Source: Bacteroidetes bacterium OLB10
GTDB taxonomy: Bacteria; Bacteroidota; Bacteroidia; AKYH767-A; OLB10
Length of the DNA: 64,000 nt
Direction: 5' to 3'
Assembly: GCA_001567275.1 (NCBI GenBank)
Contig: LNBX01000033.1
Span: 62,001-126,000 of the forward strand
The notes beneath the pieces are model-generated. The model was not told the origin of the DNA. It did not search any database and was given only the letters and a program-made list of their open reading frames with translations. This document shows, piece by piece, positions 22,685-60,592 of this stretch. Position 1 is the first letter of the stretch. The number at the start of each line of letters is the position of its first letter. The translations under genes were made by a program, and so were the position numbers.

Positions 22685-23113
22685 CAACATACCATTTACT
22701 TAAATACATATCAACTATAAATTTTTTTCTCTCCCGGAGAGAAGGATGTAGAGATAAACTTCTTCGAGAATAGTTGCATCGCTCGCACTCACCCCAACTC
22801 CTGAAGGGGTGATAACGCGCTTGAATTTTAAGAGAGATTACACCCGGCAAGAGGCAAGCTCTTGCTGAGTTGTTTACGTTTCACACCCAGCAGGAATCTT
22901 CGATAACCTGCCGGGTGTTAGAAGGAATTTTCGATAACCTGCTGGGTGTTAGAATTTAGGGCCACGGGTGCGCGGAGGAAACGCAACTGAACTCAATACT
23001 TTGACCTAACCTTTTATTGATATTCTCCTTTTGATATCTTTAATGTGTCTGTATTCTTCCTAATTCAAAAAAATTTCCTATCTTTATTCAAGTTTATTTT
23101 ATTATCATCAGTA
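22685..23113. repeat. Intergenic island of stacked inverted and tandem repeats
   Basis: No gene is visible. There are five structures: an 8-bp inverted repeat with one central base at 22,727-22,743 (TTCTCTCC/GGAGAGAA); CACCCC/GGGGTG at 22,790-22,811; GCAAGAG/CTCTTGC at 22,847-22,865; CACCCAGCAGG/CCTGCCGGGTG at 22,884-22,917; and a 31-bp unit repeated directly at 22,893-22,923 and 22,924-22,954 with two differences. The second unit carries CCTGCTGGGTG, the exact complement of the arm at 22,884. The region looks like a composite of dispersed palindromic repeats, not a simple terminator. Confidence 0.7.
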
Positions 23114-57592: not shown

Positions 57593-60592
57593 TTACCAGT
57601 CTCTCATCACTGCAATTCTAATTACAGACATGATTCGGTGATTTCTTATGATGCGAACGGCATAAATACCTGATGTCTGTATTGCTGAAACATCAATTTT
57701 GCATTTACCTCCGAAGTTATCGCATCGCTGAGTAATAATCAGTTTGCCTAACATATCAGTCAGTTCAATATCGAGTGTTGAAATGTCAGATTCGATAATG
57801 ATATAATTATTCATTACCGGATTAGGATATAATTTATACCAGTGTCCTGATGCAAAATTCTGAACAGCGTTAACGGTATCACAATCCCAAATACCTGTAT
57901 TACCTCCTACACAAATACCACAGGTATCAAAATAAGCAGTACCGCCCCAGTCGCCATTGCAATCCTGAATGCATGCAGTAAGACCTGTATTACCTCCTAC
58001 ACAAATTCCGCAACTGTCAATATATGCTGTGCCACCCCAATCACCATTACAATCAAAACCACAAGGGAACAATCCTGTATTTCCTCCTACACATGTTCCG
58101 CAGCTGTCAATATATGCTGTGCCGCCCCATACTCCGTTACAATCTTGTGTACAAGCTGTCAGACCTGTATTGCCACCAACACAAGTGTTGCATGAATCTA
58201 TAAATGCAGTTCCACCCCATACTCCATTACAATCCTGAGTACAGGCAGTAAGACCTGTATTACCTCCAACACATGTATTACATGAATCTATAAATGCAGT
58301 TCCACCCCATACTCCGTTACAATCCTGAGTACAGGCAGTGAGACCGGTGTTTCCTCCAACACATGTTCCACAACTGTCGATGAATGCTGTACCATTAAAA
58401 TCTCCATTGCAATCAGTTGTACAGTTAGGATAGACATTTTTTTCATCATAACCACTTAGGCCACCATCATCCGTTACTGTTAATCTGATACGGTAATAAT
58501 ATATTTCGCCATCACAACCCACCGGTAACAGCGTTGCCGTAGTAACTCTGTTGGTATCTGTAGGTTCAGGATGCTCATGCTGATTGTGATGAAAATAAAC
58601 ATTCCATTTGTAATGTAACTGCGATGGACCATGTTCGGCATCAGTAACAGTAGCCTGCAATGGAAGAATTGTGCTTTGAAGCATAGAATATAAATCTCCA
58701 TCATTGAAACTTGTAATATCTACAACAGGCGGTGTATTGTTGATGGAAATTAACACTGAATCTTTAGCAAAATTACCGGCTGTATCAGTTACAGTAAGCT
58801 CAACCCAGTAACTCTGAACAACACCACCGGGAACGGTAAAGGTATGTTGAGGATTTATTAATGTAGATGTAAAACCATCACCAAAATTCCATGAATATGT
58901 CAAAGGGTCGCCATCAGGGTCGTATGACTGGCTGCCGTCAAACTGAACTGTCAAAGGTGATGCACCGTAGTTTGTATCAGCTGAAGCAATAGCATAAGGA
59001 GTGTTGTTTACATTGGCTCCATAACAAATTCTCCGTATCTGATCAGGGTAGCGCACATAATAGATACAACCATCTTCCTGATTCTCTCGCATATACACTA
59101 CTGCTCCCATGTTATCACCAAAATTTCTTGCAAGCGTTGCAGTATCATTGCTATTAAAATCAAACCGTTTAATCCATTCACCTGCATAGTCGCCATGAAA
59201 ATAACTGCCCTGCATATCTAATGGAAACTTATTTCCCTGATAAAACAATCCACTTACAGATGTATAACCACCAAACCGTACACCATCAACAGGTGATGAA
59301 GGATCGTCTATATCAATTTGTGAAGCATTATTCCCAACAAAAATTCCTGTTCTTGATTCATTGCCATGATAATAATCTATTACAGGACGTGCATGAACAA
59401 ATGTGAGAACTGTTGGAGGAATAGACTGGTTGTTATCGCAAGGATTTAAGAACGGTACTATTCCGTTTTGAGTAGGGTTTTGAATCAGGTCATGAAAAGT
59501 AAAATACTTTTGTGTACATCCTCCCGTACCATAAAGTGGATTGGGTGCATAAAAATTATATTGTTTCGAACCAAAATAATTAGGATCCAAATCAAATCCC
59601 TGATAAACGGGCCAACCGAAATTCATACCGGGAGCATTACATACATTAATATCTTCCCAAAACTGCCAGCCCACATCTCCTATATAAAACGTACCCGGGT
59701 TTCCTGCAGTAGGATCTGATTCACCGGTACCAGGTTTTAAAATTATACGAAATGGATTTCTCAATCCCAGCGCCCATACTCTAGATTGTGGTGAACGCGG
59801 GTGCAACGGATCATAAAAAGGATTGGTTGGCATTCCGTCACCTGTGGCAGGATCAAGACGTAAGAGTTTTCCATTAAGCGACTGAATCATCTGTGAACGG
59901 TAAGCACCCACATTTTCTTCCGGTGTGATGATACTGTCAGCAAGTGCCTGCGGCCAGTAACTTAACACAGGTGAAATCTGACCACTGTCAGCAGTAGCCG
60001 GAGATGCACCATCACCGGTTGAAACAAATAAAGTTCCGTCAGTGGCAAATACAAGCGACCCGCCACTATGTGTATCATACAATACAGGAATACCGGTTTG
60101 CTTTGTTTCACCAAGCAATACAAATCTGCTTCCCGGAATTGTGGTTGTAAAGTTCGTTGCAGGATCAGCAGTGTATCTGGTTACTCTTGCAATAGATGCC
60201 GCATTATACTGATTTGAATCAGGGTCATAAGTTGGGGTGCCATAATAAAGGAGATAATGTAAATCTACCACATAAAAAAGATAGAAATATCCATTGGTTC
60301 TGAAGTGAGGGTCGAGTGCAAATCCGTTCAATCCATGGTCGCGCCAGTTACCTACTTCATCACTGATGTCAATAAGCGGCTGAGCAAGTTTATTTCCGTT
60401 GGTATCAACCACCCAAACAATTCCGGCTTTCTCCCAAACATAATTCTGTCCTGTTGAATCATTGACAAACCCCTCAACTTCATCCCATCCTGCACTTACC
60501 AACTGATCAAGGAATAACGGGGGCAGCGTTTGCGCAGTACCTTTCAGTATAAAAAATAAAAATACTGCCGAAAAAAGTAGAATTCTTTTCAT
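57593..60592 (-). CDS. Secreted glucose/sorbosone dehydrogenase-like protein with PKD, repeats and T9SS tail
   Basis: A 999-residue protein with a signal peptide (MKRILLFSAVFLFFILKGTAQ). Residues ~25-535 resemble the soluble PQQ-type GSDH six-bladed propeller (LNGFALDPHFRTNGYFYLFYVVD, GKLLRLDPATGDGMPTNPF, RVWALGLRNPFRIILKP, DVGWQFWEDINVCN). Then a PKD domain (YDPDGDPLTYSWNFGDGFTSTLINPQHTFT), a further beta module, six 30-residue Cys-containing repeats (about residues 727-906) and a T9SS sorting tail (WYKLYPNPVMNNYIIIESD ... IYAVRIIRN). It is exported and likely sugar- or polysaccharide-related; substrate and cofactor use are inferred. Confidence 0.85.
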   Translation of the reverse strand: MKRILLFSAVFLFFILKGTAQTLPPLFLDQLVSAGWDEVEGFVNDSTGQNYVWEKAGIVWVVDTNGNKLAQPLIDISDEVGNWRDHGLNGFALDPHFRTNGYFYLFYVVDLHYLLYYGTPTYDPDSNQYNAASIARVTRYTADPATNFTTTIPGSRFVLLGETKQTGIPVLYDTHSGGSLVFATDGTLFVSTGDGASPATADSGQISPVLSYWPQALADSIITPEENVGAYRSQMIQSLNGKLLRLDPATGDGMPTNPFYDPLHPRSPQSRVWALGLRNPFRIILKPGTGESDPTAGNPGTFYIGDVGWQFWEDINVCNAPGMNFGWPVYQGFDLDPNYFGSKQYNFYAPNPLYGTGGCTQKYFTFHDLIQNPTQNGIVPFLNPCDNNQSIPPTVLTFVHARPVIDYYHGNESRTGIFVGNNASQIDIDDPSSPVDGVRFGGYTSVSGLFYQGNKFPLDMQGSYFHGDYAGEWIKRFDFNSNDTATLARNFGDNMGAVVYMRENQEDGCIYYVRYPDQIRRICYGANVNNTPYAIASADTNYGASPLTVQFDGSQSYDPDGDPLTYSWNFGDGFTSTLINPQHTFTVPGGVVQSYWVELTVTDTAGNFAKDSVLISINNTPPVVDITSFNDGDLYSMLQSTILPLQATVTDAEHGPSQLHYKWNVYFHHNQHEHPEPTDTNRVTTATLLPVGCDGEIYYYRIRLTVTDDGGLSGYDEKNVYPNCTTDCNGDFNGTAFIDSCGTCVGGNTGLTACTQDCNGVWGGTAFIDSCNTCVGGNTGLTACTQDCNGVWGGTAFIDSCNTCVGGNTGLTACTQDCNGVWGGTAYIDSCGTCVGGNTGLFPCGFDCNGDWGGTAYIDSCGICVGGNTGLTACIQDCNGDWGGTAYFDTCGICVGGNTGIWDCDTVNAVQNFASGHWYKLYPNPVMNNYIIIESDISTLDIELTDMLGKLIITQRCDNFGGKCKIDVSAIQTSGIYAVRIIRNHRIMSVIRIAVMRDW
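57875..58414 (-). repeat. Six tandem 90-bp coding repeats
   Basis: Within the sorbosone-dehydrogenase-like gene, six copies of a 90-base unit encode DCNGxWGGTAxIDSCGxCVGG followed by NTGLTACTQ-like sequence. Copies 2 and 3 are identical at the protein level; the others differ at a few sites. The Cys/Asp/Gly pattern suggests small disulfide-bonded or calcium-binding modules, as in the DCxG repeats on T9SS proteins. Confidence 0.95.

Follow-up and report, generated by a model that had tools for sequence, protein, structure and literature searches.

The question raised by the intergenic gap at 22685-23113 is whether its stacked inverted and tandem repeats act as RNA, in a switch or a terminator, or are one copy of a dispersed DNA element. 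Coordinates are those of the window, the whole 64,000-nt stretch analysed, which is C33:62001-126000 of a draft Bacteroidota genome of 2.96 Mb (the own genome, G000). The gap lies between the stop codon of a glyoxalase-like gene (22684) and the ATG of a gene for a type IX-secreted protein (23114). The features of the island are as follows, with E values from the covariance models R1-R3 described below and G001 denoting the sister genome:

22729-22741, no strand assigned: local palindrome CTCTCCCGGAGAG, outside the dispersed family and degraded in G001
22776-22821, plus strand: HP-A module, GCATCGCTCGCACTCACCCC to CCTGAAGGGGTGATAACGCGC (model R2, E = 2.8e-14)
22835-22876, plus strand: HP-B1 hairpin with loop T2 (AAGAGGCAAGCTCTT), left half of the HP-B dimer (model R1, E = 2.8e-11)
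22869-22885, plus strand: spacer S (TTGTTTACGTTTCACA), inverted in G001
22879-22923, minus strand: HP-B2 hairpin with loop T1 (GGTTATCGAAGATTCC), loop T2 in G001 (model R1, E = 2.1e-13)
22920-22950, plus strand: 31-bp tandem duplication, right half of HP-B2, absent in G001
22950-22982, minus strand: truncated HP-C module (GCACCCGTGGCCCTAAA..) with GT(A/G)G head (model R3, E = 4.2e-7; alignment A3)

Reality of the repeats

The first-pass annotation had described inverted repeats, a 31-bp duplication and a complement to an arm of the first hairpin in an otherwise empty gap, and all of these were confirmed by repeat search and open reading frame bounds. Local inverted repeats were located at 22727-22743, 22842-22870 and 22874-22927; the 31-nt duplication comprises 22889-22919 and 22920-22950 (copies 90% identical), and 22883-22894 is an exact 12-bp complement of 22938-22949. 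The block CACCCC..GGGGTG (22788-22811) occurs once in the window (0.00 in shuffles), and either strand of the island gives a better fold than its shuffled versions (z = -3.3 and -3.5). The repeats of the island are thus real and not a product of chance. No Rfam family was matched anywhere in the window. The palindrome CTCTCCCGGAGAG was found twice in the window at up to 2 mismatches, versus 0.94 expected, and blastn of this stretch against the own genome returned low-scoring matches only, with no significant other copies. The earlier impression of a dispersed block was therefore borne out for CACCCC..GGGGTG, which belongs to the family described below, and not for CTCTCCCGGAGAG.

Dispersal of the modules

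Searching the own genome with the island by blastn gave 49 rows at E<=10, many of which fall together in clusters, and inspection of 20 matched places found HP-A, HP-B and HP-C in varying order and orientation. Three covariance models were built from 26, 16 and 19 selected rows and searched in 24 genomes of the family; the resulting copy counts are lower bounds, since no more than 150 candidates were scored in each genome and several G000 contigs end inside copies. HP-B (R1) gave at least 39 rows in G000 and at least 57 in G001. Since either strand of a palindrome produces a match, these rows were merged into at least 21 and at least 31 distinct places. At E<=0.1, HP-B matches were present in at least 16 of the 24 genomes, most of those outside the genus being weak. 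HP-C (R3) was found in four of the 24 (at least 21 rows in G000, 27 in G001, and 3 and 16 in the others), with matches in at least 5 of 42 genomes in an order-wide search, and HP-A (R2) likewise in four (at least 16 matches in G000, 10 in G001, and 1 and 1 in the others). In a named genome collection, the exact HP-B/T1 pattern was matched in five stretches, which belong to the Bacteroidetes MAGs WAS_Bin_1, WAS_Bin_9 and SZAS-1.

The modules are not tied to one arrangement. Solo HP-B hairpins were also seen (loci L034 and L035), and inner palindromes occur in other outer frames, loop T6 for example being shared by L124 and the 'D' repeat of L031. This 'D' repeat, at L031:429-573 and L045:898-992, carries TTTTGTCTTGACAC and the AATCCCGCTGAACTGCGGGATT palindrome, and the latter doubles as an HP-B loop in L124.

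The further copies sought in the genome and its relatives were thus found and support the reading of a dispersed palindromic repeat: the island belongs to a dispersed modular palindromic repeat family of a narrow Bacteroidota clade, the modules of which lie at tens of intergenic sites in the own genome and in G001. A viral or plasmid carrier was rejected, the exact HP-C and HP-B/T2 patterns giving no match in viral contigs and blastn with the repeats giving none in phages and plasmids.

The orthologous site in the sister genome

The same site is present in G001 at 94.8% identity across 4.5 kb. The window and G001 were joined in a single collinear alignment of 58,463 columns (58.4 kb; 91.3% identical), and this comparison is with one sister genome, both assemblies being draft. 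Just two indels in the alignment reach 8 nt, one of 23 nt at 22899 and one of 11 nt at 22934. Both lie in the island, as do the lowest 60-nt identities of the alignment (0.30-0.42, at 22860-22900). At the end of the alignment (57890-58424 versus sister locus L205) lies a tandem repeat, with a period of ~90 bp in the sister and many shifted self-matches.

Within the island, G001 lacks the 31-bp duplication, carries loop T2 in HP-B2 versus T1 in the window, and has the spacer TTGTTTACGTTTCACA reversed, while the loop of HP-B1 is of the same type (T2) in both. Inversion was scored where the reverse complement of a 16-mer (up to 1 mismatch) lay at the orthologous place and the 16-mer itself had at least 5 mismatches there; over 58,343 positions, only 22869-22877 passed. 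A screen with exact 14-mers had returned nothing, owing to one substitution, and was rerun at k=10-13 and with one mismatch allowed; at k=12 it gave one extra place (38488), which fails the 16-mer test. Eight distinct HP-B dimers were available in the searched loci. Since the window and six others share one spacer orientation and the G001 ortholog alone has the opposite one, the inversion is best placed in the G001 lineage.

A second loop difference was found between L036 (G000) and L070 (G001), where flanks and arms are identical and the loops are of different types, T4 and T2. In all, the loop differs in 2 of the 3 informative orthologous HP-B hairpins, those with normally diverged surroundings, HP-B1 being the unchanged one; the other orthologous copies sit in ~99% identical blocks and are uninformative on loop change.

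Loops, arms and dimers of HP-B

Intact HP-B dimers were found with the loop pairs (T2,T1), (T2,T2), (T2,T3), (T4,T1) and (T4,T2). Loop and arm diversity was computed on 47 HP-B rows, with L129, the second copies L068 and L126, L131/L133, L132, L134 and L195 left out, as well as L044 1173, L071 510, L035 823 and L063 487. Per-site diversity in the loop core, inner arm and outer arm was 0.011, 0.142 and 0.224 for T1 (10 rows), 0.031, 0.259 and 0.433 for T2 (17 rows) and 0.020, 0.067 and 0.147 for T4 (6 rows). T3 (0.448, 0.289 and 0.421; 8 rows) and T5 (0.253, 0.240 and 0.300; 5 rows) gave no such loop-versus-arm contrast as computed, their cores having been cut in different frames and left unaligned; as listed, the T3 and T5 cores differ by 0-3 mismatches. 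In three of the five multi-copy loop types (T1, T2 and T4), the cores are nearly invariant and the arms vary, a contrast that is unlikely to be a search artefact because arms count alongside loops in the search model.

The outer arms fall into three types, and left and right arms match in type in 16 of 35 rows versus 12.9 if independent (P = 0.17; 12 of the 47 rows unclassified). Arm positions are paired in 82.3% of cells versus 79.5% when shuffled, with 88 of 2000 shuffles reaching the observed value (3 of the 47 rows dropped: one ortholog duplicate and two with shifted arms). Near-independent arm types and a weak pairing excess imply that hairpin halves have recombined, with selection on pairing at most weak.

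Turnover at other sites

Repeat content differs between matching flanking genes at L130/L136, L032/L124, L037/L067, L045/L073, L043/L071 and L035/L135, a third content being present at the last of these in G003 (L075). At most of the compared orthologous sites, the entire intergenic contents differ. The sites searched for a clean insertion, with an empty counterpart and a target duplication, all proved to be occupied or rearranged.

At one site, the sister carries ~8 kb flanked on either side by an island with HP-B (L206, G001:C5:136500-147500); it encodes a complete type I restriction-modification cluster, with HsdM, HsdS and HsdR, along with a Schlafen/AlbA protein and one of the PD-(D/E)XK type. 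The own genome has <1 kb there, adjoining tRNA-Met, in which HP-B was matched four times and HP-C twice, next to a Bro-N fragment (L207, G000:C25:103000-107000). Separately, L131, L126 and L133 share ~1.36 kb with an HP-B-like hairpin at 99.7-99.8% identity across three species, whereas identity in the other DNA compared between them is much lower, at about 91% and 82%; this shared stretch is a putative recent transfer or conversion.

Search for a transposase

A look for an IS200/IS605-like transposase had been suggested as a check, and a link of the repeats to one was not upheld. PF01797 (IS200/RAYT) gave no match in the own genome (96% complete) in two profile searches. Genes with PF01797 were found in 19 of the 24 family genomes, G001 having one, and the 11 Y1-transposase loci of seven relatives contained no HP-C (R3) match and one weak HP-B-like (R1) match. 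A cognate RAYT was on these grounds rejected. The G001 Y1 gene is flanked by palindromes other than the HP modules (L184:1700-1790, G001:C9), namely GGACTCC..GGAGTCC and GACCCCAGAGGGGTC; this gene and its palindromes are probably a RAYT/REP pair in Bacteroidota. With regard to MITE features, in addition to the absence of a clean empty site among the searched sites, no transposase was detected by Pfam near the repeats in 20 ORFs from 14 loci, picked from the ORFs of 22 loci.

Alternative explanations

A two-state regulatory RNA or attenuator, in which the duplicated arm would pair with either hairpin and so switch the downstream gene, could make use of the exact 12-bp alternative pairing in the window and would agree with its folding (z = -3.3). 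However, the minus strand folds equally well, no Rfam family was matched, the covariation check found arm pairing little above shuffles, and the sister island has no duplication, an inverted spacer and a swapped loop. Given how the sister island differs and how weak the covariation is, this RNA reading, also entertained in the first-pass annotation, was rejected and is regarded as highly improbable; the alternative pairings simply follow from the repetition of arms, G001 being without them. That the hairpins are intrinsic terminators or stabilisers of mRNA 3' ends behind the glyoxalase-like gene is suggested by the start of the island directly after the stop codon and by the setting of 30 islands with crude ORF calls (21 between tandem, 5 between convergent and 4 between divergent genes). 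The single terminator-like site, versus 0.5 expected in shuffles, is nevertheless without a real T-run, and at other genes the same modules are found facing either way and grouped into islands of several hairpins. An intrinsic terminator was rejected in the absence of a GC-rich hairpin followed by a T-run, and this reading as a whole is quite unlikely.

The classical REP/BIME account, in which a RAYT (TnpA-REP) spread and cut the hairpins and has since been lost or is missing from the assembly, is possible but doubtful. It draws on the HP-C module, whose small GC-rich palindrome is headed by GT(A/G)G in 18 of 19 rows, as in RAYT-linked REPs, those of one study all being reported to have such a head (available text of PMC2817692); on dimers and heterodimers with alternative loops, which are known in REP families (PMC3733652, in the part available); and on the PF01797 genes of the relatives, G001 included. 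Against it stand the lack of such a gene in the own genome, the Y1 loci of relatives without HP-C, the different palindromes at the G001 gene, the HP-C stem of only ~5 bp, and the absence of the head as such from HP-B and HP-A. A two-slot palindromic element, in which loop cassettes of 15-18 nt would be exchanged between same-arm hairpins by hairpin-directed recombination or transposition without a RAYT, is considered a rather unlikely candidate.

The favoured explanation is that the island is a copy of a dispersed REP/BIME-like palindromic DNA mosaic, probably remodelled by template switching or recombination at the arms. The REP-type guess of the first-pass annotation was right in kind, the palindromes being dispersed and mosaic. 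The island works like a REP/BIME mosaic and is not filed as a RAYT-dependent REP because the HP-C head and known alternative loops are present but no cognate RAYT was found.

Comparison with known repeat systems

Mosaic palindromes are well studied in gamma-proteobacteria. As in REP/BIME elements, the present repeats are short GC-rich extragenic palindromes in many copies and mosaic clusters, with dimers having conserved spacers, alternative loops within one family and, on HP-C, the GT(A/G)G head. They differ in their tens of copies per genome (low for REPs), in an own genome in which no RAYT gene was found, in HP-B hairpins without the head tetranucleotide, and in the HP-B structure of a 10-bp arm and a structured core of 15-18 nt. 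In the available text of PMC3733652, GTAG repeats are listed in other phyla and CGTC repeats for Bacteroidetes.

REPINs are likewise two inverted hairpins with a spacer, foldable as two small hairpins or through the middle, and the repeated unit here is also an inverted doublet with a spacer (seven canonical dimers and one with the spacer inverted). However, REPINs have invariant outer REP ends and a variable spacer (PMC3116915, as far as its accessible text goes), whereas T1, T2 and T4 of HP-B have an invariant loop core and variable outer arms, the opposite gradient. Inverted rRNA hairpin loops, bacterial ones included, are attributed to template switching in the accessible portion of PMC8794818; they resemble the present case in that a loop flanked by short inverted arms is turned in place, and differ in that the change here lies within a dispersed mobile-like repeat and is accompanied by the replacement of a loop and by a partial duplication.

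Neisserial intergenic mosaic elements presumably offer another parallel, being large intergenic mosaics in which short conserved inverted repeats enclose variable inserts, though their sequences differ. Neisseria mosaics are mentioned in the sections available of PMC3733652. The REP-like mosaic family described here is new.

Proposed mechanism and significance

Under the favoured reading, the unit would be the HP-B dimer, to which HP-A and HP-C are joined; its two hairpins have near-identical arms of 9-10 bp and are separated by a conserved spacer of 10 nt. Because the arms are alike in sequence, the nascent strand could switch template in replication, or recombine, and such events may flip spacers, swap or delete loops and yield partial duplications. 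A simpler route to the loop 'swap', compatible with the same arms, would be that an ancestral dimer carried both loops and that these were lost differentially. Seeding of new sites may have been the work of a RAYT-type transposase acting earlier or elsewhere.

To our knowledge, loop and spacer change has seldom been seen at orthologous sites, and no report of it in palindrome mosaics was found in the literature searched. Comparison with the sister genome reveals an inversion, the replacement of a loop and a partial duplication within a single island, and the 58 kb of collinear DNA, otherwise quiet, serve as a control. The island has the look of a DNA repeat in constant change and not of a gene switch, and the comparison suggests that rapid turnover of intergenic DNA can be driven by short inverted arms alone.
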